From Dehalococcoidia bacterium (GTDB taxonomy: Bacteria; Chloroflexota; Dehalococcoidia; Tepidiformales; Tepidiformaceae): 34,183 nucleotides of DNA. Within the stretch, counting starts at the first letter, position 1. Every line of letters starts with the position of its first letter. Location: the NCBI GenBank assembly GCA_022827945.1, contig JAJEIT010000060.1, positions 1-34,183 of the forward strand. The letters run 5' to 3'. Made by a program: the position numbers and the translations under genes. A model generated the notes under the pieces. It had not been told where the DNA came from, made no database searches, and worked only from the letters and a program-made list of their open reading frames with translations. Positions 7,102 through 23,909 of the stretch are shown here, piece after piece.

Positions 7102-8274
7102 ATGGTCCTTCCAACTGCCGCCGCGCGAAGCCTCGGCACGGAGACGGCGTTCGAGGTGCTGGCGCGGGCGAACCGGCTCGCCGCCGACGGTCGCTCGATC
7201 ATCAACCTCGGAATCGGCCAGCCCGACTTCGCCACCCCCGACAACATCGTCGAGGCGGGGAAGCGAGCCCTCGCCGAGGGCAAGCACGGGTACACGCCGG
7301 GCGCCGGCATCCCCGAACTGCGCGAGGCCGTGGCCAGGGACCTGAAGCGCCGCCACGGGGCGGAGGTCGACCCGGAGACCGTGCTGATCACGCCGGGGGC
7401 GAAGCCGGTGATGTTCTTCGCCGCCCTGCTTATGGGAGAGCCCGGCGCGGAGATCATGTACCCCAACCCCGGCTTCCCCATCTACGAGTCGGTGATCCGC
7501 TTCTCCGGCGCGACGCCCATCCCGATCGAGCTGCATGAAGCCGACGGCTTCACGTTCGACCCGGACCAGGTGCTCGGGCAGATCAACGAACGCACCCGCC
7601 TGATCATTCTCAACAGCCCGGCGAATCCGACGGGCGGGGTGTACACGCGGGAGCAGGTCGAGCGCCTCGTTGAGGGGCTCGAACGCTGGCCCGACGTGGT
7701 CGTCCTCAGCGACGAGATCTACTCGCGCATCCTCTACGAGGGCCGCTCGCACATCTCCTGGCTCAACTACCCGCAGCTTCGCGACCGGCTGATCGTCCTG
7801 GACGGCTGGAGCAAGACCTATGCGATGACCGGCTGGCGGCTGGGCTACGGCGTCTTCCCGCCCGACCTCTTCCCGTTCGCCGAACGCCTCGCGATTAACA
7901 GCTACAGCTGCCCCAACGCCGCCACGCAGTACGCGGCGGTCGAAGCGCTCGAAGGTCCGCAGGAGGCCGTCGATGTGATGACGGCGGCGTTCGACGAGCG
8001 GCGCAAGGTAATCGTCGAGGAGCTCAACAGCGTGCCGGGGGTTAGTTGCGTGGACCCCGGCGGCGCGTTCTATGCCTTCCCCAATATCTCGGGGACCGGG
8101 ATCGAGGCCCGCACGCTCCAGGAGCGGCTGCTGGAGGAGGCGGGGGTGGCGGTGATCGCCGGGACCAGCTTCGGGCATCTCGGCGAGGGCTACTTGCGCT
8201 TTAGCTATGCCGCCTCGCTCGAGGAGATCGTCGAAGGGGTGGACCGCATGCGCACCCTGCTGGCGAACGGGTAG
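7102..8274 (+). CDS. class I/II pyridoxal-phosphate aminotransferase
   Basis: A 390-residue fold-type I PLP enzyme of the aspartate aminotransferase family. Visible landmarks are the N-terminal INLGIGQPDF, NSPANPTGGVYT (family Asn that contacts PLP), VVLSDEIYSRILYEG (Asp that pairs with the pyridine nitrogen), and DGWSKTYAMTGWRLGYG, in which K238 is the Schiff-base lysine. A C-terminal Arg in YLRFSYA probably holds the substrate carboxylate. It transfers amino groups between an amino acid and a 2-oxo acid; exact specificity is not readable. The start is ATG 7102, with GGAGG at 7091-7095 and a 6-nt spacer, preferred over the TTG at 7096 that abuts the ribosome site. Confidence 0.93.
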   Translation: MVLPTAAARSLGTETAFEVLARANRLAADGRSIINLGIGQPDFATPDNIVEAGKRALAEGKHGYTPGAGIPELREAVARDLKRRHGAEVDPETVLITPGAKPVMFFAALLMGEPGAEIMYPNPGFPIYESVIRFSGATPIPIELHEADGFTFDPDQVLGQINERTRLIILNSPANPTGGVYTREQVERLVEGLERWPDVVVLSDEIYSRILYEGRSHISWLNYPQLRDRLIVLDGWSKTYAMTGWRLGYGVFPPDLFPFAERLAINSYSCPNAATQYAAVEALEGPQEAVDVMTAAFDERRKVIVEELNSVPGVSCVDPGGAFYAFPNISGTGIEARTLQERLLEEAGVAVIAGTSFGHLGEGYLRFSYAASLEEIVEGVDRMRTLLANG

Positions 8275-8326
8275 CGAGGCAGCGGACGCCTTTACCCGCG
8301 GGCGTGCGAGGCGACGGCTTCCTGCC

Positions 8327-8339
8327 GTACCCTCGACGC
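8327..8339 (+). promoter_or_regulatory. candidate -10 element directly before the thioredoxin-fold gene (leaderless transcript?)
   Basis: GTACCCTCGACGC matches the 13-mer at 7058-7070 with one change. TACCCT is at 8328-8333, so a start site 7 nt later coincides with the A of the ATG at 8340. There is no Shine-Dalgarno sequence between them. A leaderless mRNA is the simplest reading, but it is unproven and no clear -35 is seen. Confidence 0.4.
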
Positions 8340-8663
8340 ATGACCGACGCAGCGAGGGCGGCGACCGTCGTGACCGTCTACCCAATGACCGGGCGGCAAC
8401 TCTTTCTCACCGTGCCGCACGCCATCTGCGAGGAGTGCGACCTCACGGTGCGGCTCGTCCAGCGGGTCGCTTCCGACCTGCCGCATGTCGAGGTCCGCAT
8501 CAAGCCCTGGTTCAACAACCTCTTCGACGCGCTGCGGCGCGGAGGCTGGCACCCGCCTGTCGTGACGATCGACGGCAAGGTCTCAACGCAGGGAGTCGTA
8601 CCCGACGAGGCAACGCTGCGGCGCGCCATCGAGGCCGCGCCGGCCCGCGCCGATGCGGGCTGA
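8340..8663 (+). CDS. thioredoxin-fold protein with CxxC motif
   Basis: A 107-residue protein. After a beta-strand (GRQLFLTVPHAI) comes C30-E-E-C33 at the start of a helix, as in thioredoxin and glutaredoxin active sites. Next come a second strand with VEVRIKPW and a probable cis-proline in HPPVVTIDG before the last strand. The fold and CxxC suggest a dithiol/disulfide or metal-binding role in the cytoplasm. The Glu-Glu dipeptide between the cysteines is unlike classical thioredoxin (Gly-Pro). The last 11 nt overlap the start of the acyltransferase gene, implying cotranscription. Upstream there is a candidate -10 element but no ribosome site. An earlier in-frame start at 8304 would cover that promoter and is less likely. 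Confidence 0.75.
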   Translation: MTDAARAATVVTVYPMTGRQLFLTVPHAICEECDLTVRLVQRVASDLPHVEVRIKPWFNNLFDALRRGGWHPPVVTIDGKVSTQGVVPDEATLRRAIEAAPARADAG

Positions 8664-9594
8664 CGCGGCCGTCGCCGTCGCGACCACCGCCGAGCGGGGT
8701 CCCCGAACGCTCCTCGGCAACTACTTCCGGGTCGGCTCCACTCGCGAGTGGCTGGGGGCGTGGGTTGCCGCGCTCATCCTCCTCGGCCCCGCAAGGCTTG
8801 CGCTGCAGCTGGCCGCGCTGCTGCCCGAGCGAGGACCGGCGCGCATCCGCCGGCGGGCGGCCTGCCGGGCTGTGGAGCGCTGGTGGGCGAGGCTGGCCGC
8901 CCGCCTCCTCGGCCTGCGGATCGACATCAACGGCCTCGAACACATCGAACCGGGCGAGCGGTACGTGGTCGCCTCACTGCACGAGGGCTTCGCCGACGGC
9001 CTCGGCCTGCTCCACCTCCCCCTCTCGCTCACGGCCGTCGCCCGGGACGAGCTCGCCACCTTCCCATGCCTGGGCCCGCAGCTCAGGCGGGGGCGACACC
9101 TCTTCATCCGGCCCGAGCACCCGCTCCAGAGCGCCCGCACGCTTTGTCGCGAGGCCCGCGCTGCTATCGACGACAGTGACAGCATCCTCCTCTTCCCGCA
9201 GGGCTCAATCCTCGGCATCGAGCTCGCGTTCCAGCCGGGGGCGTTCCACCTCGCGCGCCGCCTCGGGCGTCCGCTTCTCCCAGTCGTCGTGACTGGCGGC
9301 CACCGCGTGTGGGAGCACCCGTTCACTCCCACGTTGCGGGCCAACCAGTCGATGAGCGTCGCCGTGCTTCCTCCGATTCCCCCGGAGGAAGCCGTCGCCC
9401 AGCAACCGGCTATCGAGCGGGACATGAAGCGGCTCGCCCTGGCGAGCAAGACGCCTCCCCGCCACTTCGACCCGGGTCGCGACGGCTACTGGGACGACTA
9501 CCGCTACGACATCGACCCCAATTTCCCGGACCTCGCCCGCCGCGTAGCGAACCATCGTCGTGACACCGTGGGCGCCCACGCCCACCGGCCCTGA
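8653..9594 (+). CDS. PlsC-like 1-acylglycerol-phosphate acyltransferase family protein
   Basis: A 313-residue protein with a hydrophobic N-terminal segment (LGAWVAALILLGPARLALQL). It carries the acyltransferase motifs: H110-E-G-F-A-D115 (HX4D catalytic dyad), FIRPE (motif II-like), LLFPQGS (motif III, usually FPEG) and LLPVVVTGG (motif IV). Family members move a fatty acyl chain onto lysophospholipids at the inner membrane face. The Glu-to-Gln change in motif III sits at a substrate-binding position and may alter the acceptor. The C-terminus (RDGYWDDYRYDIDPNF) is an acidic aromatic tail I do not recognise. It begins inside the thioredoxin-fold gene and converges on the class III aminotransferase with a 19-bp gap and no visible terminator. 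Confidence 0.85.
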   Translation: MRADAAVAVATTAERGPRTLLGNYFRVGSTREWLGAWVAALILLGPARLALQLAALLPERGPARIRRRAACRAVERWWARLAARLLGLRIDINGLEHIEPGERYVVASLHEGFADGLGLLHLPLSLTAVARDELATFPCLGPQLRRGRHLFIRPEHPLQSARTLCREARAAIDDSDSILLFPQGSILGIELAFQPGAFHLARRLGRPLLPVVVTGGHRVWEHPFTPTLRANQSMSVAVLPPIPPEEAVAQQPAIERDMKRLALASKTPPRHFDPGRDGYWDDYRYDIDPNFPDLARRVANHRRDTVGAHAHRP

Positions 9595-9613
9595 AAGACC
9601 CAGAGACCGAGCG

Positions 9614-10933
9614 CTAGGCAGGCTGCTCCGGATGCGCCGCGGAACGGATGGCCCGGTCGAGCATCGCCAGGCCTTCGGTGACTTCGGCGGGGGTGATGGA
9701 GAGGGGCGGGGCGATGCGGAGCACGTTGCGGTGGAGGCCGCCTTTCCCGACAAGCAGGCCCTCGGCCCTGGCCGCCTGGAGCACACCGTCGGCCAGTTCG
9801 GGAAGGGGGTCGAGCGAGCCGGGAGCGGCGAACTCGACGCCGATCATCAGGCCCTTGCCCCGGACCTCGGCGACCTCGGCGACATCCTCGGCGAGGCGCT
9901 CAATCCCGTCCTGGAGGGCACGGCCCTGCACGCGCGCGTTCTCCTGGAGGTCCTGCTCGAACAGCACTTCCAGGTTCGCCAGGGCCGCCGTCGCGGCAAG
10001 CGGGTTGCCGCCGAACGTGGAGAGGGAGTTGGCCGGCAGGCAGTCGACAACGTCCGCGCGACCGACGACGCCGGCGATGGCGACGCCGTTGCCGAGCCCC
10101 TTCGCGAAGGTGAGGAGGTCGGGGACGATCCCATGCACCTGGTGCCCCCAGAAGTGGTCACCGGTGCGGCCCCAGCCCGTCTGCACCTCGTCGGCGACAA
10201 AGAGGATGCCGTGCTCGTCCAGCACCTGCTTGAGGGCGCCGAAGTAGCCGTCGGGAGGGACGACGAAGCCGCCGACGCCCTGGATGGGCTCGGCGATCAT
10301 CGCGGCGACGTCGCCGGCGGTGGCGACGTCGAGGAGGTCGCGGAGGTCGTCGACACAGGCCTCCACGAACTCGTCCTCAGGGAGGCCGCCGAAGGGTGAA
10401 CGCAGCCGGTAGCCGCTGTGGACGTAGGTGACGTTGAACGGGCTCAGGGCGGTGGCAGACCAGGAGGCGTTGCCGGTGACGGCAACAGTCGAGTGCGACT
10501 TGCCGTGATAGCTGTTCCGCAGGGCGAGGATCTGATCGGATGAGCGGAACTGGGTCGCCATCATCAGGGCGGCGTCGTTGGCCTCGCTGCCCGAGTTCGT
10601 GAAGAACACCTTCGCGTCGGGGATGCCGGAGAGCTCGGCGATGCGCTCGGCCAGCTCGATCTGCGGCTCGATGAGGTAGAGCGTGCTCGTGTGGAGCATG
10701 CGGGCCGCCTGGTCCTGGATGGCCTCGACAACGCGGGGGACGCGGTAGCCGGTCATGGTGGTGAGGATGCCGCCGAAGAAGTCGAGGTAGCGATTCCCCT
10801 CGGCATCGACAACGTGCCGGCCCTCGCCATCGACGAGCGCGATGGGGTCGTCGTAGTAGAGGGTCATCCAGGAGGGCATCACGCCCCGATGTCGCGCCAA
10901 CAGGTCAGCGTGGCGGCCCACGCGCGGCTCCAT
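9614..10933 (-). CDS. class III (omega-type) PLP aminotransferase
   Basis: A 439-residue class III aminotransferase. Landmarks are VDAEGNRYLDFFGGI near the N-terminus, FFTNSGSEANDAALMMA (phosphate-binding cup), NSYHGKSH, MIAEPIQGVGGFVVPP, ILFVADEVQTGWGRTG (Asp for the PLP ring), and TFAKGLGNG with Schiff-base K278. STFGGNPLAAT follows. Relatives act on ornithine, 4-aminobutyrate, beta-alanine:pyruvate or alanine:glyoxylate pairs. The sequence cannot choose among these, although the overall look is close to alanine-glyoxylate or GABA-type enzymes. The start ATG 10933 (MEPRVGRHADLLARHRG) is preferred over the far upstream in-frame start at 11068, which would run into the divergent amidase gene. 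The ribosome site is weak. Confidence 0.9.
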   Translation of the reverse strand: MEPRVGRHADLLARHRGVMPSWMTLYYDDPIALVDGEGRHVVDAEGNRYLDFFGGILTTMTGYRVPRVVEAIQDQAARMLHTSTLYLIEPQIELAERIAELSGIPDAKVFFTNSGSEANDAALMMATQFRSSDQILALRNSYHGKSHSTVAVTGNASWSATALSPFNVTYVHSGYRLRSPFGGLPEDEFVEACVDDLRDLLDVATAGDVAAMIAEPIQGVGGFVVPPDGYFGALKQVLDEHGILFVADEVQTGWGRTGDHFWGHQVHGIVPDLLTFAKGLGNGVAIAGVVGRADVVDCLPANSLSTFGGNPLAATAALANLEVLFEQDLQENARVQGRALQDGIERLAEDVAEVAEVRGKGLMIGVEFAAPGSLDPLPELADGVLQAARAEGLLVGKGGLHRNVLRIAPPLSITPAEVTEGLAMLDRAIRSAAHPEQPA

Positions 10934-11002
10934 CCCGAGGTATCGGCTCGGGGGGAAGATACGCCGCAGGCTCGCCGCGTGTCTTGCCGAGACCAGAGGC
11001 GC

Positions 11003-11031
11003 TTGGCACGTCCGGGCGGCGGGGCTAGGGT
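11003..11031 (+). promoter_or_regulatory. sigma-70-type promoter of the amidase gene
   Basis: TTGGCA (11003-11008) and TAGGGT (11026-11031) are separated by exactly 17 nt. This is the best -35/-10 pair I found in the window. Transcription should begin near 11038, followed by GGAGG at 11041 and the ATG at 11053, so the leader is only about 15 nt. Confidence 0.5.
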
Positions 11032-11052: not shown

Positions 11053-12462
11053 ATGACGCAGGCCACAAGCACGAGATACGACCCAGCGACCTACGAACCC
11101 CTGACCTTTCACGACGCGGCCCGCCGGTTCCGGACGGGCGACGACACGCCCCGGGACTACCTCGAACGCTGCCTGGCGACGATCGACGAACGCGAGCCGG
11201 TCGTGCAGGCGTTCGCCCACCTCAACCGGGAACCGGCGCGGGCCGCCGCGGACGCGAGCACCGCTCGGTGGGCGGCAGGCGAGCCGCGCTCGCCGATCGA
11301 CGGTATGCCGGTGGGCATCAAGGACCTGCTCGAGACGAAGGACATGCCCACCGAGTACGGCTGCGAGGCGTTTCGGGGGAACTTTCCCCGGCGCGACAAC
11401 GCGGCCGTCTGGGCACTGCGGCAGGCGGGCGCGGTCATCCTCGGGAAGACGATCACGGCCGAGCTGGGAGGCGCCCATCCCGGACCCACGACCAACCCGT
11501 TCGACCCGCGACGCTCGCCCGGGGGCTCGTCCTCCGGCTCGGCGGCAGGGGTGGCGGCGCACATGTTCCCGGCGGCGCTCGGCACGCAGGTCGGCGGTTC
11601 GATCATCCGGCCGGCCGGGTACTGCGGGAACGTCGCGCTCAAGCCGACGCAGGGCGGCATCAACCGCGGCGAGCGCCAGGTGACCAGCATGAGCACCCAC
11701 GGCGTCCATGCAGGCTGCATCGAGGACATGTGGCAGGTCGCGATCGAGATTGCGCGGCGGGCGGGCGGCGACCGGGGGGCGCGGGGGCTGGAGGGACCCT
11801 CGACCACGCCGGAACCGGTCAGGCCCGAGCGGCTGATCGTGCTGGAGACGCAGGGCTGGGCGGAGCTGCACGACGCCAGCAAGGGGGGCTTCGCGGCCGT
11901 GCTCGACCAGCTTCGCGGGCTGGGCGTCGAGCTCCTGAACCGCCGGCACGACCCCTTTGTCGAGTCGCTCGAAGGCGCCATCGGCAACGCCCGCGAAGTG
12001 TGCAACGCGATCACGGGCTGGGAGAACCGCTGGGCGACGCGGAACCTCGTCGACCAGCAACCGGACGGGGTGAGCGAGCGGGCGAAGGAGGTGCTCGATG
12101 CGGCGGAGGCCATGACGGTGGATGACTACCGGGCGTTGCTGTTCGCGCGGGACGTTGCGCAGGAAGCACACGCGGCTCTCGCCGGGTCCGCCGACGCGGT
12201 CATCACGCTCTCGTGCCCGGGACCGGCGCACGTCTGGCTGGGCGACGAGCCGGGGGTTCCGCTTGCCCCGCGCCCGACCGGCGACCCGGTGTTCAACTTC
12301 CCGAGCTCGATGTTGTTCGCGCCGGCGGTGAGCATGCCGCTGATGAGCGTCGGTGGGATGCCCGTCGGGGTGCAGATCTTCGGCCAGCAGCACGACGACG
12401 CGGCGATGACCTCGATCGCGCGCTGGCTGCTCGGGGCCGTGACGCCGGTCGTCGTGGACTAA
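11053..12462 (+). CDS. amidase-signature family hydrolase
   Basis: A 469-residue amidase-signature enzyme with a complete Ser-cisSer-Lys triad: K90 in GIKDLLE, cis-Ser S159 in RSPGGSSSGSAAG, and nucleophile S183 in GTQVGGSIIRPAGYCG. The family hydrolyses amides, including GatA-like and xenobiotic amidases. There are no GatB/C neighbours, so this is a stand-alone catabolic amidase, probably cytoplasmic (no signal peptide). In many relatives the segment before GGS reads DTGGS; here it is TQVGGS, which may affect specificity. The start is ATG 11053 with GGAGG at 11041-11045; a GTG immediately before it is also possible. The final 4 nt overlap the end of the epoxide hydrolase gene on the other strand. 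Confidence 0.92.
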   Translation: MTQATSTRYDPATYEPLTFHDAARRFRTGDDTPRDYLERCLATIDEREPVVQAFAHLNREPARAAADASTARWAAGEPRSPIDGMPVGIKDLLETKDMPTEYGCEAFRGNFPRRDNAAVWALRQAGAVILGKTITAELGGAHPGPTTNPFDPRRSPGGSSSGSAAGVAAHMFPAALGTQVGGSIIRPAGYCGNVALKPTQGGINRGERQVTSMSTHGVHAGCIEDMWQVAIEIARRAGGDRGARGLEGPSTTPEPVRPERLIVLETQGWAELHDASKGGFAAVLDQLRGLGVELLNRRHDPFVESLEGAIGNAREVCNAITGWENRWATRNLVDQQPDGVSERAKEVLDAAEAMTVDDYRALLFARDVAQEAHAALAGSADAVITLSCPGPAHVWLGDEPGVPLAPRPTGDPVFNFPSSMLFAPAVSMPLMSVGGMPVGVQIFGQQHDDAAMTSIARWLLGAVTPVVVD

Positions 12463-13685
12463 CGCAGGGGCCTGAAGAACTCGACGACGTCCTTCACGAA
12501 GAGGTCGGGCTCCTCGGCGGCGGGGAAGTGGCCGCCGCGCTCCTGCTTGCGCCAGTGCGTGAGGTTGTTGTTCGCCTCGACCATCTTGCGGGGGGCGAAC
12601 ACCATCTCGCGCGGGAAGCCGGGGACGCCGACCGGCACCTCGATGGCGGGCGTGCGCTCATGGGCGCGGTCCCAGGGCGTGCGGAAGACGTGCCAGTACC
12701 AGCGGGCGGACGTGACGTAGCTCTCGGTGAGCCAGTAGATGCTGACGAGATCGAGCAGGAACTTCCGCGAGGGCACCTGGTCGGGACCGCCGCGGTTGTC
12801 GCTCCAGTTGTAGCGCTTCTCGATGAGCCAGGCGGCGAGCCCGACGGGCGAGTCGTGGAGGGCGTAGGCGAAGGTCTGCGGATCGGTGGTGTGGACGGCA
12901 ACATGGGCGAGGGCGGTGGTCCAGCGGTCGTCCATCATGTCCCAGGACCACTGCTCATCGGGCTCGAAGTCATCACGGCTGAGCCGCGACGTAGGGCCGT
13001 CCAGGGTCCGGCGCAGGCCGAGGAGGCTACCCGGCTTCTGGTTGCCGGTTCCGGACCCTCCCGCCCCGCCCAGCATCGGGGCGATGCTGACGTGGATACC
13101 GACGACGCGGTCGCCGTACTTGTGGCCGAGCTGGGCGCTGATGCCGGCGCCGAAGTCGCCGCCCGCCGCTGCGAAACGGTCGTAGCCAAGCACGTCAGAC
13201 ATAAGCGTGGCCCAGAGGTCGGCGGTCCACTGGGTCTGGACGCCGTCGACGGTAAGGGGCGTGGAGAAGCCGAAGCCGGGCAGGGAGGGCGCGACCACAT
13301 CGAAGGAATCGGCCGGGTCCCCGCCAAAGGCAGCGGGGTCGGTGAGCCTGCGCGTGGCCTCCTTCCAGTCCCAGAAGCTCCAGGGCCAGCCGTGGGTAAG
13401 GATGATGGGGAGCGGATTCGGCCCCTTTCCCCGCTCGTACATGAAGTGGATGGGGATGCCATCAAGGGTGACGCGGTAGTTGCCGAAGCTGTTGATCTCG
13501 GCCTCGGTCTCGCGCCAGTCGTACTCCTGCCACGACTCGACGAACGACTCGAGGTACGTGCGCGGCACACCGTAGCGCCAGTCCTCGTTGTTGAAGTCGG
13601 CAGGCCAGCGGATACGTCGCAGGCGGGCCTGGAGGTCCTCCAGCGCCTCATCCGGGATAGCGACGTTGAACGGCTCGGGCGGCAT
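12459..13685 (-). CDS. epoxide hydrolase (EHN plus alpha/beta-hydrolase)
   Basis: A 408-residue protein of the microsomal-type epoxide hydrolase family. The N-terminal EHN domain (PFNVAIPDEALEDLQARLRR) is followed by ILTHGWPWSFWDW (HGWP oxyanion motif). SLPGFGFSTPL and the nucleophile D177 in GGDFGAGIS come next. A cap region with paired tyrosines follows, and the catalytic His386 is in GGHFPAAEEPDLF. It opens epoxides to diols through an Asp ester intermediate, and could detoxify or process P450 products made by the nearby gene. It lies 12 bp downstream of the dehydrogenase gene on the same strand with a GAGGGGAGGA ribosome site, so the two are probably cotranscribed. Confidence 0.93.
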   Translation of the reverse strand: MPPEPFNVAIPDEALEDLQARLRRIRWPADFNNEDWRYGVPRTYLESFVESWQEYDWRETEAEINSFGNYRVTLDGIPIHFMYERGKGPNPLPIILTHGWPWSFWDWKEATRRLTDPAAFGGDPADSFDVVAPSLPGFGFSTPLTVDGVQTQWTADLWATLMSDVLGYDRFAAAGGDFGAGISAQLGHKYGDRVVGIHVSIAPMLGGAGGSGTGNQKPGSLLGLRRTLDGPTSRLSRDDFEPDEQWSWDMMDDRWTTALAHVAVHTTDPQTFAYALHDSPVGLAAWLIEKRYNWSDNRGGPDQVPSRKFLLDLVSIYWLTESYVTSARWYWHVFRTPWDRAHERTPAIEVPVGVPGFPREMVFAPRKMVEANNNLTHWRKQERGGHFPAAEEPDLFVKDVVEFFRPLR

Positions 13686-13697
13686 TTCGTCCTCCCC

Positions 13698-14741
13698 TCA
13701 GGCGCTACCACCGGTGTCGACGAGCACCTTGCAGTTGAGCTGGTCGCCGGCGGTGATGCGGGCGATCTCCTCGGGCAGTTCCCCCAGGTCCACGGTCCGG
13801 GTGACGAGCGGGGTCGTGTCGATGGAGCCGCTTCCGAAGGCGTCGAGCGTCTCCTGGAAGTCCTCGCGGGTGTAGGCCACCGAGAACTTGATGGTGAGGG
13901 CCTTGTTGATCCCGACGACGGGCATGAAGCGGTCCTCTTCCATGCAGACGCCGACGACGATGATCCTCCCGCGGGGCTTCACGGCGTCCATCGCCTGACG
14001 GATGATGCCGGGGATCCCCACGCAGTCGATGACAACGTCCGGTCCTCCGTCGAGCCCGGCTTCGAGGTCGGAGTCGAATCCGTCCGCGGCCGGATCGAGG
14101 ACGACGTCGGCGCCGAGCGAGGCCGCGAGATCACGGCGGAGGGCCACGGGATCGCTGACCGCGACGAGCTCCACACCGTCGTGCTTCAGCCACATCAGGG
14201 CCATGAGTCCGATCGGGCCGGCGCCCATGATGAGGACGCGATCGCCCGCTTCCGCCTCGGCCTCGTGGGTCGCGTGGCGAGCAACGGAGCAGGGCTCGGT
14301 GGTAGCCCCTACCTCGACGCTGACGTTGTCGGGGACGGGGAGGAGGGTCGGCTCCCAGAGCACCATGTAGTCGGCGAAGGCGCCGTTCAGCTCGGAGCTG
14401 TAGGCGCTGGCCATCCGTGGCGGAAGCGGGCGGTCGGTCTCTCCGGCGGGAGCTTTCACGACGCGGTCGCCGGGGGACCACTCGGAGACATCCGGGCCAA
14501 CCTCAACAACCTCGGCGACGAACTCGTGGCCCATCACCATGCCGTCGTTCAGGTCGGCCTTCTCGTACCAGGAGGTGTGGCCGGTCTCCTCGATGATGGA
14601 TTCGAGGTGGGCGGCGGCGTGAACGTCGGAGGCGCATATCCCGGCTGCCAGGACGCGAACGAGCACCTCGCCCGAGCCGGGGGTGGGCCGGGGCCACTCC
14701 TCCACGGTGAGCGTGGTTCCCCTCAATACCATTGCCTGCAT
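13698..14741 (-). CDS. zinc-binding medium-chain alcohol dehydrogenase
   Basis: A 347-residue MDR-family NAD(P)-dependent dehydrogenase. Catalytic zinc ligands are present: C36 in AGICASD (with D39) and H72-E73 in MGHEF, with a TEPCSVA segment (E149/C151) for the last ligand. The nucleotide site is GAGPIGLMAL, followed by an Asp (VSDP) that favours NAD over NADP. The four-cysteine structural zinc lobe of classical alcohol dehydrogenases is missing, and an extended region (ESIIEETGHTSWYEKADLND) sits before GHE. It oxidises an alcohol or diol; a product of the cotranscribed epoxide hydrolase is an obvious but unproven candidate. It is divergent from the P450 gene across 191 bp, where a TAGGCT (14783-14788, minus) may be its -10. 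Confidence 0.9.
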   Translation of the reverse strand: MQAMVLRGTTLTVEEWPRPTPGSGEVLVRVLAAGICASDVHAAAHLESIIEETGHTSWYEKADLNDGMVMGHEFVAEVVEVGPDVSEWSPGDRVVKAPAGETDRPLPPRMASAYSSELNGAFADYMVLWEPTLLPVPDNVSVEVGATTEPCSVARHATHEAEAEAGDRVLIMGAGPIGLMALMWLKHDGVELVAVSDPVALRRDLAASLGADVVLDPAADGFDSDLEAGLDGGPDVVIDCVGIPGIIRQAMDAVKPRGRIIVVGVCMEEDRFMPVVGINKALTIKFSVAYTREDFQETLDAFGSGSIDTTPLVTRTVDLGELPEEIARITAGDQLNCKVLVDTGGSA

Positions 14742-16184: not shown

Positions 16185-18140
16185 ATGTACGACAAGCTGT
16201 TCGAGCCGATCGACGTCGGCGGGGTCACCATCAAGAACCGGGTCGTGCGGTCGCCCCACGGGACGGGGCTCTTCGGCGACGACTTCATCGCTTACCACGT
16301 GGCGCGGGCGAAGGGCGGCGTGGGGATGTCCACGGTGTCGGCGACGAGCGTCCATCCGAACGCTCCCGGGGCGATCCCGGTGTGGTCCGACGACTGCAAG
16401 CCGTACCTGTCGAAGCTGGCGAACGCCGTGCACGAACACGGCATGAAGATGTTCCACCAGATCTACCACCCGGGCGCATCGCAGGCGGAGATGGTGGGCG
16501 GGGCGGAGGCGTGGTCGGCGAGCGAAATCCCGAACTTCCTCGGAGGCGCCGTGGTACCGGTCGCGATCAGCAAGGGGCAGATCGCCGACCTCGTGGAGCA
16601 TTTCGCGGGCGCCGCCCGGCGCATCCGGGACGCCGGCCTCGACGGCGTCGACATCCACGCATCCAGCGGCTACCTGCTGCACGAGTTCCTCTCCCCGGCG
16701 CTCAACCAGCGCGACGACGAGTACGGCGGTTCGCCGGAAAACCGGATGCGGATCGTCCTCGAGGTGATCGACGCGATTCGCGGGGAAGTGGGCGACAGCG
16801 ACTTCGCCGTCGGGGTGCGCCTTCCGAACGAGGACTACGTTCCGGGCGGCCTCACGGCCGAGCTGAACCGCCAGATCGCCGAGACGGTCGACCCGCTTGT
16901 CGACTACGTCTCCCTGCACATGGGGTCGTACTGGCGCTTCCACAAGCTGATCGCGCCGACGGACGACCCGCTGGGGGTCGAGATGGCCCCGAACGCCACG
17001 ATTCGCCCCGTGATCACGAAGCCGACCATCGTGGTCGGACGGATCCTGACAATCGATCACGCCCACGCCCTGGTGGAATCGGGTCAGGCGGACATGGTCT
17101 CGATGGTGCGGGCGTTGATCGCCGACCCGGAGCTGGTGAACAAGGCCCAGCAAGGCAACGAGGATCTGATCCGGCCCTGCATCGGCACGAACATGGGCTG
17201 CGTGGGGCGACTGATGAGCGGCCAGGGGCTGAGCTGTGTCGTGAACGTTGCCGCCGGCCAGGAGGCGACGGTGACGCAGGAGCCCGAGATTCCAGCAGAA
17301 GAGCCGAGGCGGGTGCTCGTGGTCGGGGGCGGCCCGGCGGGCATGGAAGCAGCCCGGACGGCTGCGATCCGGGGGCATCACGTCCAGCTTCACGAGGCGA
17401 CGCCGAAGCTGGGCGGCCAGGTGAACATCGCGGCGAGCGCTCCGAAGCGGGGCGACGTCGGCGCGATCACGCACTGGCTGGGGGAGGAGCTCAAGCGCCT
17501 GCAGGTGGACGTGCGCCTGAACTCGCTCGTCGACATCGAGACCGTCATGGAGGCGGACGCAGACGTCGTCGTGCTGGCGGCCGGGGCCAGTCCCCGCGCG
17601 GATGGGTTCCAGGTGGCGACGCCGGCGGTGACGCTTCCCGGCCACGATCTACCGCACGTGTACAACGCGCAGGACCTCATGGGGTACGGCGAGCCCGTCA
17701 ACATCCAGGGGCCGGCGCTCGTCTTCGACGACACTGGCTCGTTCGAGGCGATCTCGGCAGCCGACGTGCTCCTCGAGGCGGGGGTTCATGTGACGCTCGT
17801 CTCGCGGCTCAAGGACCTGGGCGAGAACCTGCCGTACCCGCCGGTGACGGTGGGGGCAGCGCGCGAACGGCTGATGTCCGGCGACTTCGACCTGATCGGG
17901 GGGCACTACCTCCAGGAGATACGCCCGGGCGAGGTCGACATCGGCGTGCTGCACACCGATCGCGTGCGAACGATTCCGGCAGAGACGGTAATCATGGTGA
18001 CCCACCACGAACCGAACCGGTACCTCGCGACCGAGCTTGAAGCGGAAGGCATCGAGGTCCACCAGGTCGGGGACGCGCAGGGCCGCAACAGCATCCGGAA
18101 CGCGATTCACACGGGCGCGTTCCTGGGACGGGAGCTGTAG
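16185..18140 (+). CDS. FMN/Fe-S/FAD oxidoreductase of the 2,4-dienoyl-CoA reductase type
   Basis: A 651-residue two-part enzyme. Residues ~1-330 form an OYE-type FMN barrel (KLFEPIDVGGVTIKNRVVRSP, then DIHASSGYLLHEFLSP and YGGSPENRMR). Residues ~365-651 are an NAD(P)H/FAD module with RRVLVVGGGPAGMEAARTA and HEATPKLGGQ. Between them lies the iron-sulfur cysteine cluster. Relatives are dienoyl-CoA reductase, trimethylamine dehydrogenase and N-methylproline or stachydrine demethylases. Only three of the four usual cluster ligands are present (C332, C339, C351), with T335 at the second position. The OYE HGAHG motif is HASSG. Reduction of a double bond or oxidative demethylation are both possible. 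The gene starts 19 bp after the P450 gene with a GAGGGAGGG ribosome site. Confidence 0.9.
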   Translation: MYDKLFEPIDVGGVTIKNRVVRSPHGTGLFGDDFIAYHVARAKGGVGMSTVSATSVHPNAPGAIPVWSDDCKPYLSKLANAVHEHGMKMFHQIYHPGASQAEMVGGAEAWSASEIPNFLGGAVVPVAISKGQIADLVEHFAGAARRIRDAGLDGVDIHASSGYLLHEFLSPALNQRDDEYGGSPENRMRIVLEVIDAIRGEVGDSDFAVGVRLPNEDYVPGGLTAELNRQIAETVDPLVDYVSLHMGSYWRFHKLIAPTDDPLGVEMAPNATIRPVITKPTIVVGRILTIDHAHALVESGQADMVSMVRALIADPELVNKAQQGNEDLIRPCIGTNMGCVGRLMSGQGLSCVVNVAAGQEATVTQEPEIPAEEPRRVLVVGGGPAGMEAARTAAIRGHHVQLHEATPKLGGQVNIAASAPKRGDVGAITHWLGEELKRLQVDVRLNSLVDIETVMEADADVVVLAAGASPRADGFQVATPAVTLPGHDLPHVYNAQDLMGYGEPVNIQGPALVFDDTGSFEAISAADVLLEAGVHVTLVSRLKDLGENLPYPPVTVGAARERLMSGDFDLIGGHYLQEIRPGEVDIGVLHTDRVRTIPAETVIMVTHHEPNRYLATELEAEGIEVHQVGDAQGRNSIRNAIHTGAFLGREL

Positions 18141-18175: not shown

Positions 18176-19114
18176 ATGCGCGTCGCAGTGCTGGGAGGGA
18201 GCGGGTTCATCGGGCCGCGCGTGATGCGGCGGCTAGTCGAGCACGGACATGAGGTCCACTGCATGGACATCGCGCCCAACGCTCCGGCGCTCGACCCACT
18301 GCGCGACCGGATCCAGATCATGCGCGGCGACATCACGCTCATGGACGACGTGGTGGAGGCGCTGACGCTGAGCAAGCCGGACCGCGTCCTGAACCTCGCC
18401 TACGCGCTGGGCGCGGGCCAGGACGACCCGCATCCGCAGGTGCGGCTGAACATTCTCGGGATGGACAACTGCTTTGAGGCGGCTCGCCTCCTCGGAATCC
18501 GGCGCGTGATCTACGCGAGCTCCCTGGCCGTGTACGGCCCGCAGCGGCTGCACGGCGAGCGCGCGGTGACGGAGGACGACCTGTGCCTGGGGACCGGCAT
18601 CTACGCGGTCTCGAAGATCTTCAACGAGCACCAGGCGGATTGGTACAACTCCGCCTTCGATATGGCGATCACGGGCGTGCGCCCGGCGAACATCACGGGG
18701 CCGGACAAGGAGCGTGGCTCGATGAACCATGTGCAGTGCCAGGTGCTGCCCGCGCGCGGCGAGCGCGTGACCTTCTCTTATCGGGACACGATGACGCTGC
18801 CGCTGCACGTCGAGGACATCGCGGAGGTGTTCCTGCGGGTGACGCTCGCGGAGGAGACGGCCTACCCCATCTACAACTCGGGCGGGAACTCGACGAGCCT
18901 GGGGGCACTCGCAGACATCGTGCGGGAGTTCCTGCCGGAGGCCGAGATCGTGTTCGACGAGGAGGAGGGCGGGCGCGAGTCGTCGGGGCTGTTCCTGATG
19001 GACAATTCGCGTCTCGTGGAGGAGTTCGAGGTCGAGTACGCGCCGTTCCGGCAGCGCGTGCTGGAGACCCTGAACGACGTCCGGCGAGGGGAAGGGCTGC
19101 CGCCGCTCGGCTAG
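18176..19114 (+). CDS. NAD-dependent epimerase/dehydratase (extended SDR)
   Basis: A 312-residue extended short-chain dehydrogenase. The N-terminal nucleotide loop is VAVLGGSGFIG (residues 4-13), with HCMDIAP giving an Asp that favours NAD(H). The catalytic Ser/Thr region is VIYASSLAVYG, and YAVSK holds Y143 and K147. Family members act on nucleotide sugars, but many in catabolic operons reduce or oxidise other carbonyls. Sitting between an OYE-type reductase and a CrtC-like protein, a 3-hydroxysteroid- or terpenoid-type dehydrogenase role is possible. This is inference from context. It starts 36 bp after the oxidoreductase gene with a GGAGGG ribosome site. Confidence 0.88.
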   Translation: MRVAVLGGSGFIGPRVMRRLVEHGHEVHCMDIAPNAPALDPLRDRIQIMRGDITLMDDVVEALTLSKPDRVLNLAYALGAGQDDPHPQVRLNILGMDNCFEAARLLGIRRVIYASSLAVYGPQRLHGERAVTEDDLCLGTGIYAVSKIFNEHQADWYNSAFDMAITGVRPANITGPDKERGSMNHVQCQVLPARGERVTFSYRDTMTLPLHVEDIAEVFLRVTLAEETAYPIYNSGGNSTSLGALADIVREFLPEAEIVFDEEEGGRESSGLFLMDNSRLVEEFEVEYAPFRQRVLETLNDVRRGEGLPPLG

Positions 19115-19166: not shown

Positions 19167-20282
19167 GTGCTGACCGACCTCGACGACACCCTCATCCACC
19201 AGGCCCCGCTTCCGTTCGCGTTCGTGGGAACGAGCGACCACCGGTTCTACGACCGTTACTGGTTCGAGTCGTTCGCGCCGGATGGGTCGGCGGGCGTCCT
19301 CGTGAGCATGGGGCGCTACCCCAACATGAACGTGCTCGATGGGTTCGTGACCGCACAGACGGAGCGCAAGCAGTACAACGTCCGCTTCTCGCGGGAGCTG
19401 CGGCCGGCGTTCGCGGAAACGAGGGTCGGTGGGCTCAGCGTCTCGCTGGTCGAGCCACTGAAGATCCTGCACCTCCGGCTGGAGGAGGGCGACCACCCCC
19501 TAGGTTGCGACCTGACGTGGACGGGCAGCCTGCCGGCGCGGCTGGAGGACCACAGCTTCTCCCGTGCGCAAGGGCGCGTCGTGTCCGACATGTACCGTTT
19601 CGCGCAGGTGGGGACGGTGAGCGGGTCGCTGAGCATCGACGGTCGCGACTTCGCGGCGGCGGACTGGTTCGGGGCGTGGGACCACTCGTGGGGCGTACGG
19701 CCGGGCGTCGGGGGTTTCGAACCGGTTACGGGTAGCGCTGTAGGCGGGGCCGGGGGACGCCTGTTCATCTGGCTCGCGTTTCGGGTCGATGGGTTCGGCG
19801 GTTATGTTCAGCTTCACGAAGACCACCTGGGGCGGAGACAGTCGCTCGACGGCGCGCTGGTCTGGCCCGCGGAGGCGGGGCGGCCGGAGCTTCGAGTCGT
19901 CGATATGGAGCACGACCTGACCTTCCACGAGGGAACGCGCGCGTTCAGCCATGCGCGGCTGGTCCTGACGACCGAGGACGAGCAGCGCTGGGAGATCGAG
20001 GCGGAGCCGGTGTTCACCGCTTGGGCCTACAAGGGGACCGGCTACGGCACGGGCTACCACGACGAGAAGGGGCTGGGCGCATACCGCGGCGAGTACCTCG
20101 AGGAGACGGACGTGTACGACGTCTCCCACCCGGAGATCGTGCGGAATCTCGACGGTAACCAGATCCCGTCCGGGCACCGGGAGCAGCCGGTGCGGCTCAC
20201 CGTGAACGGCAAGCCCGGGTTCGGGCACCTCCCCATCATGGTGATGGGGGCGAACCAGCGGTACGGGCTCCAGGCGCAGTAA
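19167..20282 (+). CDS. DUF7065/DUF7064-like, CrtC/AttH-type lipocalin-fold protein
   Basis: A 371-residue protein rich in beta strands and aromatics, with no signal peptide. The motif FGAWDHSWGVRPG (D172-H173-S174-W175) and the later LTFHEGTRAFSHARLVL strand resemble the CrtC (carotenoid 1,2-hydratase)/AttH superfamily. Within that group it looks like the DUF7064/DUF7065 proteins common in catabolic clusters. Biochemical function is unknown. Binding or hydrating a hydrophobic, isoprenoid-like compound would fit the fold and the P450/OYE neighbours. The start is GTG 19167 with AGGAG at 19156-19160 and a 6-nt spacer. It is followed 2 bp later by the APH-fold gene, so the two are strongly linked. 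Confidence 0.75.
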   Translation: MLTDLDDTLIHQAPLPFAFVGTSDHRFYDRYWFESFAPDGSAGVLVSMGRYPNMNVLDGFVTAQTERKQYNVRFSRELRPAFAETRVGGLSVSLVEPLKILHLRLEEGDHPLGCDLTWTGSLPARLEDHSFSRAQGRVVSDMYRFAQVGTVSGSLSIDGRDFAAADWFGAWDHSWGVRPGVGGFEPVTGSAVGGAGGRLFIWLAFRVDGFGGYVQLHEDHLGRRQSLDGALVWPAEAGRPELRVVDMEHDLTFHEGTRAFSHARLVLTTEDEQRWEIEAEPVFTAWAYKGTGYGTGYHDEKGLGAYRGEYLEETDVYDVSHPEIVRNLDGNQIPSGHREQPVRLTVNGKPGFGHLPIMVMGANQRYGLQAQ

Positions 20283-20284
20283 CG

Positions 20285-21352
20285 ATGGTCGACGCAGAGG
20301 CGGTGGCGGGCTACTTCGCCGAACGGTTCGACGAAGCGGTCACGATCAGCTCGCTCAGGCAGACGTTTCCGGGCATGTCGCGGGAGACGTGGATCGTGGG
20401 CGCGGAGGTAGGGGAGGGGTCCGCGAAGCGCCACCGGGACCTCGTGCTGCGCATCGACCTTCCGAGCGGGGGGATCGTGCCGCTGCCGTTGAAGACGGAG
20501 TGGGAGGTGTACGTGCGTCTGTGGCCGTCGCCGGTGCCAGTAGCCGAGCCGCTCTGGTACGACGAGGGGCTCGCTTTCGCCGAGGGGCGACCGCACATGG
20601 TCCGCGAGCTTGTCGAGGGGGCCACGAGTATTCCGGACCTGATGGAGCCAGGGCCGGAGGGGGACGCCCTGCGCCGCAGCGTGGCGTTCGAACACGCCGA
20701 GAAGCTGGCGCTCGTGCACTCGCTCGACTGGAAACAGTACGGGCTCGACGAGGTTCTGGCCGCGCCCGAGTCACCGGCGGACGCCATCCGGAAGGATTTC
20801 GAGATGTGGAAGGCGATCTGGTTCGAGTGCCGTTCCGCGCCGTACCCGGAGATCACCGACGCCCTCTACTGGCTTGAGGAGCAGATCCCGACGGAGAGCC
20901 CTCGCATCTCGCTGATCAAGGGAAACAACGGGATCGGCGAGGAGATCTGGCGGGACGGGAAGATCGTTGCAATGAGCGACTGGGAACTGGCGGCGCTCGG
21001 GGACGCCGCGCAGGACTGGGCCTTCTCGCAGGGCATGCTCGGCCTCTGGGATCCCGACGAAACCCTGGCTCACTACGAGGAGGCAGCCGGCTTCAAGCTC
21101 TCGCCACGGACGATGGCGTTCAGCCAGCTCTTCATTGCCTTCAAGTCGACCGTCTGCCTGAACAGCGCGCTGCGGGGGTTCATGGACGGCCGCGACCGAC
21201 GGCCCGGGGTCGCGGTGATGGGCATCTCGAGCCCGCGGAACGCCGCGGGCCGGCTCGCATCCGTCGTGGGGATGGAGCTCGAGGAGGCGGCCCGCGCCCT
21301 CGCGCCTCGCGGGCCAGACGGCAGCCCGTACATCAGGGGGGAACGAACGTGA
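20285..21352 (+). CDS. APH-fold phosphotransferase-family protein with altered catalytic motif
   Basis: A 355-residue protein of the aminoglycoside/choline-kinase-like (APH) fold. It has an N-lobe with DLVLRIDLP, a helix ending PHMVRELVEGA, the HSLDWKQYGLDE linker seen in this subfamily, and the C-lobe metal motif MSDWELAALGD (D232-W233-E234). The catalytic loop, normally HGDxxxxN, reads K212-G-N214-NGIG-E219. The catalytic Asp is Asn and the metal-binding Asn is Glu. It may be an inactive pseudokinase, a binding protein, or an enzyme with changed chemistry. It starts 2 bp after the DUF7065-like gene, and its TGA overlaps the GTG of the next gene, so it is tightly coupled on both sides. Confidence 0.82.
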   Translation: MVDAEAVAGYFAERFDEAVTISSLRQTFPGMSRETWIVGAEVGEGSAKRHRDLVLRIDLPSGGIVPLPLKTEWEVYVRLWPSPVPVAEPLWYDEGLAFAEGRPHMVRELVEGATSIPDLMEPGPEGDALRRSVAFEHAEKLALVHSLDWKQYGLDEVLAAPESPADAIRKDFEMWKAIWFECRSAPYPEITDALYWLEEQIPTESPRISLIKGNNGIGEEIWRDGKIVAMSDWELAALGDAAQDWAFSQGMLGLWDPDETLAHYEEAAGFKLSPRTMAFSQLFIAFKSTVCLNSALRGFMDGRDRRPGVAVMGISSPRNAAGRLASVVGMELEEAARALAPRGPDGSPYIRGERT

Positions 21353-21855
21353 GACCCAGCACGAAGGAATTGCTCGACTCGATTGCGGAGGCGCTGGACA
21401 CGCGCGTGGCTCCTACGGTGACCGACCCGTGGGCGGCGAGCTCGCTGCGGAGCATCGGCACGCTGCTCAATCATCTCTCCGTCCGCGTCGAGCACGAGCT
21501 GACGATCCTCGCGGAGGGGAACACCGACCTTCGCGAGGTGCTGGCGGACGCCTGCGACCGGCTGGAAGGCCAGGAGACGCCGAGCCGGCCTTCGATGCGG
21601 GCGGACATCGAGGCGCTGCTCCTGGAGCTGGACTCTCGGGGCACTGCGGGCGTAGCGACGGTGGCGCTACTGGAAGAAGCGAGCAGGGCCCTCAACGAGC
21701 AACTCGAGCGGCTCGTGCGCGTGGTCCATGAAGACCGGGATTCCCTCGGCGATGGGGTTCACGAGGAACTGCTTGGGTCGATCCGCCGTTACTTCGCACG
21801 ACAACGGGAACGGGAGGCGCCCCTGTATGAGGCGCTCACGGGGCCGATGTTCTGA
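21349..21855 (+). CDS. conserved-looking helical protein, unknown function
   Basis: A 168-residue protein starting at GTG 21349, which overlaps the TGA of the APH-fold gene (GTGA). It is predicted to be almost all helix: SLRSIGTLLNHLSVRVEHEL, LREVLADACDRLEGQ, a middle loop with TPSRPSM, then LLEEASRALNEQLERLVRVV and SIRRYFARQREREAPLYEAL. There are no membrane segments, cysteines in pairs or known catalytic motifs. Placed between the APH-fold and phosphohistidine proteins, it could be a small subunit or adaptor of the same activity. I do not recognise the family. Confidence 0.72.
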   Translation: MRPSTKELLDSIAEALDTRVAPTVTDPWAASSLRSIGTLLNHLSVRVEHELTILAEGNTDLREVLADACDRLEGQETPSRPSMRADIEALLLELDSRGTAGVATVALLEEASRALNEQLERLVRVVHEDRDSLGDGVHEELLGSIRRYFARQREREAPLYEALTGPMF

Positions 21856-21882
21856 GCCGGGCAGCCGGAGCATGATGACCAG

Positions 21883-23388
21883 ATGACCGAGATCGAATTC
21901 GTCCTGCCAGATCCGGAGCTCGAGCAGTACACCTGGATATACGAGAACGAGCATGGGCCCGCATCGCAGCCGCCGCTGACGCGGGAGGCGGGCTTCGGTC
22001 CGCCTCCTGAGCCGGGCGCTCCACCCTCGCGGCTAATCATCAACGGCTACAGCTACTTCCGCTCGGGTCCGACGGGAGAGATGCCGAGCTCTTTCGACCT
22101 GCCGGACCTCGGGAAAGCGACCGCGCTCGAAACCTGGAACGAGAAGTGGTTGCCGCAGGTGGACGCGCTCTTCGACGAGCTGTGCGGGTTCGACGCCGCC
22201 ACAGTCGAGGAGGGGGAGTGGGGGGAGGTTCTTGACCGCCAGGCGGCCGAGTTCCGGCGGGTGTTCGCGGGAGTTCACGGCGAGTGCGTCCTGACCTCCG
22301 GGCAGCTCGCGAGGGAGTTCGTCGATGCGTACTGCGACGTCTTCGGCGAGACCCGACGCGGGGACGGCCACGCCATCCTGCAGGGCTTCCCCAACCAGAC
22401 CCTCGACCGCGCGAACGCGCTCTGGGAGCTCGGGCGCGAGGTCCGCGCCGCGCGAGCGCTCCGGGCTGCCGTCGAGGAGGCAATCGAGAGCGGGGCGGCC
22501 GTGGGGGTTTCCACGTTCGAGCGCCGCATGGAGCGCTTCCTCGAGGAGTTCGGGCACACGATCGACGCACAGGTTCCGGACGCGCCCACATGGCGGGAGA
22601 ACCCGCGTCCGGCGCTCGACCTGATCCTTCGCTACGCCGACAAGCCCGAGGACGCGTCACCCTCGCTGGCTGCGGAGGCACAGGTCGCGCGGCGGCGGGA
22701 GCTGGAGGCAGAGCTGGATGTGCTGGCGGAGGGGGACCAGCGGGCACGAGATCTGCGGGAGACGCTCCCGCCGGCACAGGAGTTGCTGCCGGTTCGCGAG
22801 GACCACAACACGCTCTGCGACCAGCGGCTGGGGGCGGCCTCGCGCTACCGCTGGATGAATGTTGGCCAGCTGCTGGTGGATCGCGGGCTCGCGGAGGAAG
22901 CCGGGGATGTCTTCTACTTCACGCTGGAGGAACTGCGGGGGGCGCTGGAGAGCGGGAGCGCTCCCGGGAGCCGGGCCATCAACGAGCGCCGGCGAGAGCA
23001 GGCGGCCTTCCGGGCAGTACAGCCGCCGCCGGTCCTCGGGCAGCCTCTCGCCACCGAGTCGAGCGAGGCGGGGACGCTGCGGGGAACGGGGGCGTCGCCG
23101 GGGGTTTATCGAGGACAAGCGCGGGTGATTCGATCGCTGGCGGAGGCGGGGCGGCTCGGCGACGGCGAGGTTCTGGTCTGCGGCGTGACCGCCCCGACCT
23201 GGACGCCGTACTTCGCGGTTGCCGGGGCGGTGGTGACGGATGCGGGCGGGGCGCTCTCGCACACGGCCGTGGTCGCCCGGGAATACGGCATCCCGGCGGT
23301 GGTGGGGACACGGACGGGCACGCGCGCCATCGCCGACGGCGCGCTGATCGAGGTCGACGGCTCCGAGGGGCTGGTCCGGCTCCTCTAG
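21883..23388 (+). CDS. PEP-utilizing-enzyme protein: substrate domain plus phosphohistidine domain, no ATP-grasp
   Basis: A 501-residue protein. Residues ~390-501 form the swivelling phosphohistidine domain of PEP synthase/PPDK/rifampin phosphotransferase, with GTGASPGVYRGQARVI, then GGALSHTAVVAREYGIPAVVG holding H460. Residues 1-390 resemble the helical substrate-binding region of rifampin phosphotransferase-like proteins (start EFVLPDPELEQYTWIYENEH; later DHNTLCDQRLGAASRYRW). The ATP-grasp domain that charges the histidine in one-chain enzymes is absent, as is a PEP-binding barrel. It must either accept phosphate from a separate subunit, as in phenylphosphate synthase, or work differently. 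It lies 27 bp after the helical-protein gene and its end shares CTAG with the convergent DinB gene. Confidence 0.85.
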   Translation: MTEIEFVLPDPELEQYTWIYENEHGPASQPPLTREAGFGPPPEPGAPPSRLIINGYSYFRSGPTGEMPSSFDLPDLGKATALETWNEKWLPQVDALFDELCGFDAATVEEGEWGEVLDRQAAEFRRVFAGVHGECVLTSGQLAREFVDAYCDVFGETRRGDGHAILQGFPNQTLDRANALWELGREVRAARALRAAVEEAIESGAAVGVSTFERRMERFLEEFGHTIDAQVPDAPTWRENPRPALDLILRYADKPEDASPSLAAEAQVARRRELEAELDVLAEGDQRARDLRETLPPAQELLPVREDHNTLCDQRLGAASRYRWMNVGQLLVDRGLAEEAGDVFYFTLEELRGALESGSAPGSRAINERRREQAAFRAVQPPPVLGQPLATESSEAGTLRGTGASPGVYRGQARVIRSLAEAGRLGDGEVLVCGVTAPTWTPYFAVAGAVVTDAGGALSHTAVVAREYGIPAVVGTRTGTRAIADGALIEVDGSEGLVRLL

Positions 23389-23909
23389 TGGGTGCCCTGG
23401 GCGGCCATTACGGTGGGCATGCCCTGCATGCCCCGGAGGGTGTTGATTTCGCCGCGGTGGCCGTTGAAGTGACCCATCATGTGGAGGGAGATGGCCTCGC
23501 CGACACTCTCGGTGCCGTTGCGAGCGGGGATCTCGCGTTCGAGGTCTTCGTCGGTGGCGCCGGCGAGGAACCGCGCGGTGCGCTCGAAGACGGCGTCCTG
23601 ATAGCCGGCGAGGGCGTCGATGTCGGCAACGCGAACCTGCCGGGCATCCTCGTCGGACATGCCGGTTCCGAAGCCGTCGAACGGCAGGCCGGTGCGACCG
23701 GCCCACTCCTCGCTCCAGACCTGCGGCTGGTCGCTCACGCGACTGACGATGAGGTCTTCGACACGAGAGGTGTGCCAGAGGCACCAGGCGATGGAGTGGC
23801 TGCCCTGCTCGGGGACGAAGTGGAGTTGCTCGTCGGTGCCGTTGCGGGCGTCGATCAGAGCGGCGTGCGTGAACTCAAGGCTGTGCTGGATAAATTCGAC
23901 GGTGCTCAT
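23385..23909 (-). CDS. DinB-family four-helix protein
   Basis: A 174-residue DinB/YfiT-fold protein. The start (MSTVEFIQHSLEFTHAALID) forms the first helix. The metal triad looks complete: H46 in WCLWHTSRVED, and H147 and H151 in LHMMGHFNGHRGEI. Family members are metal-binding proteins, some being thiol-dependent transferases (bacillithiol or mycothiol). The actual substrate is unknown. ATG 23909 is chosen because AGGGGGATG lies just upstream and the residues before it (from 23954) are not DinB-like. It follows the CDF gene by 71 bp on the same strand, so cotranscription is possible. Confidence 0.87.
   Translation of the reverse strand: MSTVEFIQHSLEFTHAALIDARNGTDEQLHFVPEQGSHSIAWCLWHTSRVEDLIVSRVSDQPQVWSEEWAGRTGLPFDGFGTGMSDEDARQVRVADIDALAGYQDAVFERTARFLAGATDEDLEREIPARNGTESVGEAISLHMMGHFNGHRGEINTLRGMQGMPTVMAAQGTH

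Follow-up and report, generated by a model that had tools for sequence, protein, structure and literature searches.

The subject of this report is a short run of genes in a Dehalococcoidia bacterium (assembly GCA_022827945.1, a draft genome of 99 contigs that is 95% complete), found within a stretch of 34,183 nt of contig JAJEIT010000060.1 that is referred to here as the window. A preliminary description of the window had singled out three coupled plus-strand genes together with several residues of their products (K212-G-N214, E219 and D232-W-E in the first and H460 in the third), and all of these stand as it gave them. The first gene encodes a 355-residue APH-fold protein (20285–21352), the second a 168-residue helical partner termed MID (21349–21855), and the third, termed HIS (21883–23388), a protein in which a substrate domain like that of rifampin phosphotransferase (RPH) is joined to a phosphohistidine swivel domain. 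The ends of the APH and MID genes overlap by 4 bases and a gap of 27 bases separates MID from HIS, while a fourth plus-strand gene, RV (19167–20282), ends 2 bases 5′ of APH and belongs to the same unit; operon structure and co-transcription are judged throughout from such gene spacing. RV encodes an Rv3169-family homologue of the 25-phosphosteroid lyase (25-PSL). Across genomes the constant core of this cassette is RV, an APH-fold protein with an altered catalytic loop (hereafter the K-type APH) and MID, with HIS joining in some lineages only.

A conserved alteration of the APH catalytic loop

The APH protein matches Pfam APH (PF01636) at 29.3 bits, which is above the cut-off, and its AlphaFold2 model (predicted local distance difference test score, pLDDT, 92.4) is closest to Rv3168 of Mycobacterium tuberculosis (Z 27.2) and then to 25-hydroxysteroid kinase (Z 26.0), within a range of Z 18–27 against APH and choline kinase structures. 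The metal-binding Asp is retained in D232-W-E, as are the N-lobe basic residue and the helix-C Glu of the fold (R56 and E72). The HGDxxxxN motif, which carries the catalytic base and an Asn, is replaced at residues 212–220 (codons at 20918–20944) by K212-G-N-N-G-I-G-E219-E220. The preliminary description had called this loop non-canonical, and a scan of genome contigs, which recovered 46 K-type proteins at 44 loci, bears this out in that all 46 fit K[GE][NT]NGx[GNT]EE, with Asn or Thr and never Asp at position 214 and Glu at 219. One of the two peptide patterns that seeded the scan spans the loop itself; 15 of the 46 proteins read KGTNG and could be obtained only through the other pattern.

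Within the order, KGNNG..EE is kept in relatives down to 36–44% identity, and among 42 aligned K-type proteins, with identities down to 30%, the loop is invariant or nearly so, the fully invariant positions being R56, E72, K212, N215, G216, E219, E220, D232, W233 and E234. The K-type proteins form one clade with full support in the Shimodaira–Hasegawa-like approximate likelihood-ratio test (SH-aLRT 100; support 99 when the loop columns are removed), and this clade extends over at least five phyla (Chloroflexota, Pseudomonadota, Actinomycetota, Myxococcota and Thermodesulfobacteriota). Comparison with a congener gave ratios of nonsynonymous to synonymous substitution (dN/dS) of 0.043 for APH, 0.091 for MID and 0.181 for HIS. 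The loop, though altered, is conserved and shows no decay, and the pattern of invariance in the aligned sequences argues that the nucleotide and metal site has been retained, that the base position is held by Asn or Thr, and that new charged residues have become fixed.

The helical partner is nearly as constant, since MID adjoins 45 of the 46 K-type APHs, and it also adjoins some canonical APHs. Its model is confident (pLDDT 94.5) and contains six helices. No Pfam family was found for the window MID, and a Pfam scan over 46 MID members gave no convincing family, with weak Hemerythrin matches in 12 of them. Assignment to a known fold was likewise abandoned: there was no Foldseek match below E=0.34, and the best VIA-align score, Z 8.0 to an apolipophorin, is uninformative for helical bundles.

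A second type of altered loop, GQGQVGPGQ, was encountered in a paralogous APH–MID pair (L080, contig C63 of genome G034, 9481–11024; L069, contig C9 of genome G000, 7388–8868); in four congeners this pair lies about 8 kb from a standalone ATP-grasp gene.

A lyase homologue and the acceptor half of a dikinase

RV matches NF053593 at 327 bits and the solved 25-PSL (PDB 9fzn, 9g2i and 9g4c) at E=1.3e-37 as a single sequence and 1.7e-71 as a profile, with homology running the full length (profile positions 2–372), which places it in that family. The papers that we found still term the 25-PSL gene unknown or putative (PMC8449060; PMC11061730); the evidence therefore comes from the PDB entries. The deposited sequences of 9fzn and 9g4c differ by a change of Asp to Asn within RDRSWGVRP; the window RV carries the Asp (D172), which is invariant across 30 RV sequences, and we infer that it is catalytic. 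An Rv3169-family gene lies within 4 kb of 36 of the 46 K-type APHs, mostly directly upstream with ends that overlap or nearly do so. The same RV–APH–MID arrangement occurs with a canonical HGD kinase in Actinomadura and Nocardia, and contig C69 of the source genome carries another RV gene near a canonical APH.

Since RV resembles 25-PSL and the APH fold resembles 25-hydroxysteroid kinase, the kinase fold and the lyase of one known ATP-dependent dehydration share a single cassette. The comparison with Sterolibacterium denitrificans (PMC8449060; PDB 9fsg, 9ft5, 9fzn, 9g4c) thus covers the APH-fold protein, the lyase homologue with its Asp, and the logic of the dehydration; it breaks down in that the kinase-fold protein of the window lacks the catalytic Asp and Asn, and in that the genes here are adjacent and accompanied by MID, whereas no lyase candidate lies near the kinase gene there. 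Genes resembling 3-ketosteroid-delta-1-dehydrogenase at 6 of the 44 loci point to steroid or similar substrates; there was none among the window genes scanned. No paper was found that connects steroid degradation with both phosphotransferase-family and PEP-utilizing proteins.

HIS matches the Pfam PEP-utilizers family at 75.2 bits, and its residues 205–501 align to RPH 561–866, which comprise the rifampin-binding and swivel domains (E=3.7e-36). The phospho-accepting H460 (codon 23260–23262) lies in GGALSHTAVV, where Leu occupies the position of the regulatory Thr of phosphoenolpyruvate (PEP) synthases; RPH and the phenolic dikinases are also without this Thr and have Met there (PMC12167813). 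HIS gave no Pfam match to PPDK_N, the ATP-grasp domain, in line with the preliminary description, which had further suggested looking for an orphan PPDK_N gene. There is one in the source genome, a standalone gene of 317 residues on contig C27 (PPDK_N, 286.5 bits) whose product aligns along its length to the ATP-grasp domains of RPH and PEP synthase. The source genome (2.85 Mb) also contains four standalone HIS genes besides PPDK, and both a standalone ATP-grasp gene and standalone HIS genes are present in all nine genomes of the genus (the source and eight congeners). The ATP-grasp gene and the window-type HIS lie on different contigs in the three genomes G000 (the source), G032 and G033; in other genera of the family ATP-grasp and HIS share a short contig (G017:C65 and G019:C95), and in genome G047 the two genes lie side by side.

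With a swivel His, an RPH-like domain chain devoid of ATP-grasp, and a separate ATP-grasp protein in the same genome, HIS is, by its sequence features, the acceptor half of a two-component dikinase of the HpeHI/PpsAB type. In HpeHI, CreHI and PpsAB phosphate passes from the ATP-grasp protein to the His protein and from there to the substrate, and the halves of HpeHI can cooperate without needing a stable complex (PMC12167813). Because the ATP-grasp and HIS genes are separate in the same way here, an ATP-grasp subunit encoded elsewhere, as in phenylphosphate synthase, is the likelier of the two proposals made in the preliminary description. The systems share the RPH-like substrate domain and swivel His in one protein and the ATP-grasp domain in another; they differ in that the ATP-grasp protein here is unlinked and apparently common to four HIS paralogues, and in that HIS is tied to a lyase cassette and not to phenol catabolism (PMC12167813). 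Fused versions exist as well: at L115 a protein of 858 residues combining ATP-grasp, RPH-like and His domains is encoded at 11458–14034, about 3.4 kb downstream of a K-type cassette. In four actinomycete genomes a standalone HIS shares a contig with a fused ATP-grasp/His gene of 494–527 residues (G039:C21, G040:C3, G041:C222 and G038:C34); its product recalls VadK (Rv1127c) and is possibly a shared charger.

Kinases in the neighbourhood of the cassette

The preliminary description had proposed that the APH protein and HIS are complementary halves, each lacking what the other might provide, and that the three genes should then co-occur. Neighbours were counted from simple open reading frame (ORF) calls and hidden Markov models built in this analysis, so remote kinases may be missed. 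On these counts APH and MID do travel together, and HIS is not a constant partner: HIS or a fused dikinase occurs within 10 kb of 9 of the 46 K-type APHs (five Dehalococcoidia loci, two in Actinomadura, and one each in Nocardia and a gammaproteobacterium), while the constant RV had been left out of the grouping. In genomes G034, G018 and G011 the cassette is present with no HIS adjoining. The sphingomonads G042–G046 have a K-type APH and no clear standalone HIS, their matches lying in PPDK-length, PtsP-length or other long frames, and in three of these five genomes PPDK is the sole PPDK_N match. Conversely, the three further HIS paralogues of the source genome have no adjoining APH. A HIS on contig C57 was considered as the partner of a canonical APH–MID pair on that contig and was set aside, as 17 kb of sequence with housekeeping-type genes lies between them.

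The APH–HIS arrangement is tightly syntenic in six congeners. The cassette-adjacent HIS proteins of Actinomadura and of the window, however, are not sisters; a single co-inherited partner was therefore rejected, and because other paralogues are at least as close to the window HIS, the Actinomadura HIS was probably recruited separately. Elsewhere the same place is taken by other enzymes: in nine alphaproteobacterial loci the gene that overlaps or directly follows the end of MID is not HIS but a canonical HGD APH, and at L120 an EcKL kinase lies near the K-type cassette. All told, a putatively active kinase (HIS or fused dikinase, canonical APH, or EcKL) is found within 10 kb of 25 of the 46 K-type APHs, although many of these loci are related and the independent events are fewer, in the order of seven lineages. 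Such a distribution fits a cassette that depends on some phosphoryl-transferring enzyme, a role that the K-type APH itself has given up.

Upstream of RV in the window lie three further plus-strand genes that probably belong to the same operon: an SDR/epimerase-like oxidoreductase (18176–19114) and a FadH/OYE-type flavoprotein (16185–18140), both syntenic in congeners, and a cytochrome P450 (14933–16165, in an ORF that opens at 14732). Beside the operon on the minus strand is an epoxide hydrolase with an EHN domain (12459–13685), and the same cluster of genes also accompanies the cassette at L095 and L099. A minus-strand gene resembling DinB and mycothiol S-transferases (23385–23909) overlaps the 3′ end of HIS, a position conserved in congeners.

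A proposed phosphate flow through the cassette and its alternatives

The account that we tentatively put forward, with somewhat less than an even chance of being right, is that of a catabolic cassette in which a hydroxyl is phosphorylated and the phosphate is then eliminated, with a dikinase route through HIS and a K-type APH that is not an ordinary alcohol kinase. The oxidoreductases upstream would produce or expose a hydroxyl on a hydrophobic, steroid- or terpenoid-like compound; the ATP-grasp protein from C27 would phosphorylate H460, HIS would hand the phosphate to the substrate (another kinase doing so elsewhere), and RV, by homology, would eliminate it, the sum being an ATP-dependent dehydration. 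The K-type APH, its catalytic base lost through replacement of Asp by Asn or Thr, would together with MID most likely hold ATP and/or substrate or product, or act on an oxygen already carrying a negative charge. Related logic is known from LvaA/LvaB/LvaC and from ACAD10/ACAD11 (PMC6692424, PMC12440821, PMC11342911), where a hydroxyl is phosphorylated and the phosphate then eliminated, in the Lva case by an APH kinase with a small partner; there, however, the loop is canonical and elimination falls to an acyl-CoA dehydrogenase, a role presumably taken here by RV. Among the window genes adjoining APH there is no acyl-CoA dehydrogenase of the LvaC type.

Several observations weigh against this account. 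The strict conservation of K212, N215, E219 and E220 resembles an active and not a passive catalytic site; for 21 of the 46 K-type APHs, several of which lie on short contigs, no second kinase was recognised within 10 kb; the ATP-grasp gene is unlinked to the window HIS, and a single ATP-grasp protein has to serve for several paralogues; the P450, OYE and SDR of the immediate neighbourhood are not steroid-specific; and that HIS, APH and RV act on one molecule is something we infer. The first two of these favour a possible though rather doubtful alternative, in which the K-type APH, together with MID, acts as the hydroxyl kinase of the cassette, with K212 and E219/E220 standing in for the His, Asp and Asn, while RV eliminates the phosphate and HIS serves another step. 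Change of Asp to Ala at the equivalent place abolishes the kinase activity of ACAD10/11 (PMC12440821), but a natural Asn at the base position may not mean full inactivity, and this alternative is therefore entertained. It gains from the occurrence of the same RV–APH–MID order with canonical HGD kinases (L113, L127 and L130), from the invariance of G216 and D232 along with the residues just named, and from the pairing of LvaA with a 12-kDa partner, LvaB (PMC6692424), to which MID is similar in position only. It loses from the absence of the base found in characterised relatives and from the alphaproteobacterial cassettes, which retain a second, canonical APH within the same overlapping operon. 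A bolder reading, which we consider distinctly unlikely, treats the K-type APH as a catalytic class that is new for the kinase fold and can dispense with a general base, its nucleophile being anionic from the outset. A companion kinase (the HIS dikinase here, the canonical APH of sphingomonads) would make a phosphoester, and the K-type APH would convert this to a diphosphate, or would phosphorylate an enolate or carboxylate, thus providing the adjacent lyase with a group that leaves more easily. Such a mechanism would account for the replacement of Asp by the neutral Asn/Thr and of His by Lys, for the retention of the ATP/metal site and for the frequent presence of a second kinase.

HIS might also be functionally unrelated to RV, APH and MID and merely share a catabolic neighbourhood with them. 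Its adjacency is lineage-restricted and involves HIS genes from different subfamilies, yet with only four such genes in 2.85 Mb repeated independent placement by chance is improbable, and sphingomonads place another kinase in the same slot, so that this view seems unlikely. Less likely by far is an obligate split system in which APH and HIS are halves of one phosphotransfer machine. Synteny in the six congeners and the independent HIS neighbours in Actinomadura speak for it, but the missing half is already supplied by the orphan ATP-grasp protein, and the distribution, with K-type APHs in genomes that have no clear standalone HIS and HIS paralogues away from any APH, leads us to reject it. That the APH gene encodes a decaying, functionless pseudoenzyme can be practically dismissed: the catalytic Asp and Asn are indeed lost, but a dN/dS of 0.043, a single clade in at least five phyla and the invariance of the new residues refute decay.

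The gene pair Rv3168–Rv3169 of M. tuberculosis is the same combination of an APH-fold protein and an Rv3169-family member, and Rv3168 (PDB 3ats), the top fold match, differs from the K-type in retaining WGD..N. The operon has been described as consisting of these two genes only (PMC5340868), and by this pairing it is a candidate alcohol kinase/phospholyase pair; a testable function is thereby offered for the Rv3169 family, this operon included. Overall, the K-type APHs constitute a widespread and apparently uncharacterised kinase-fold branch that is linked to a family of phosphate-eliminating lyases and to two-component dikinases, and they provide a natural example of a kinase fold that lacks the base and is nonetheless under strong selection. 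The cassette as a whole suggests a general bacterial strategy in which ATP is used to dehydrate unreactive alcohols.

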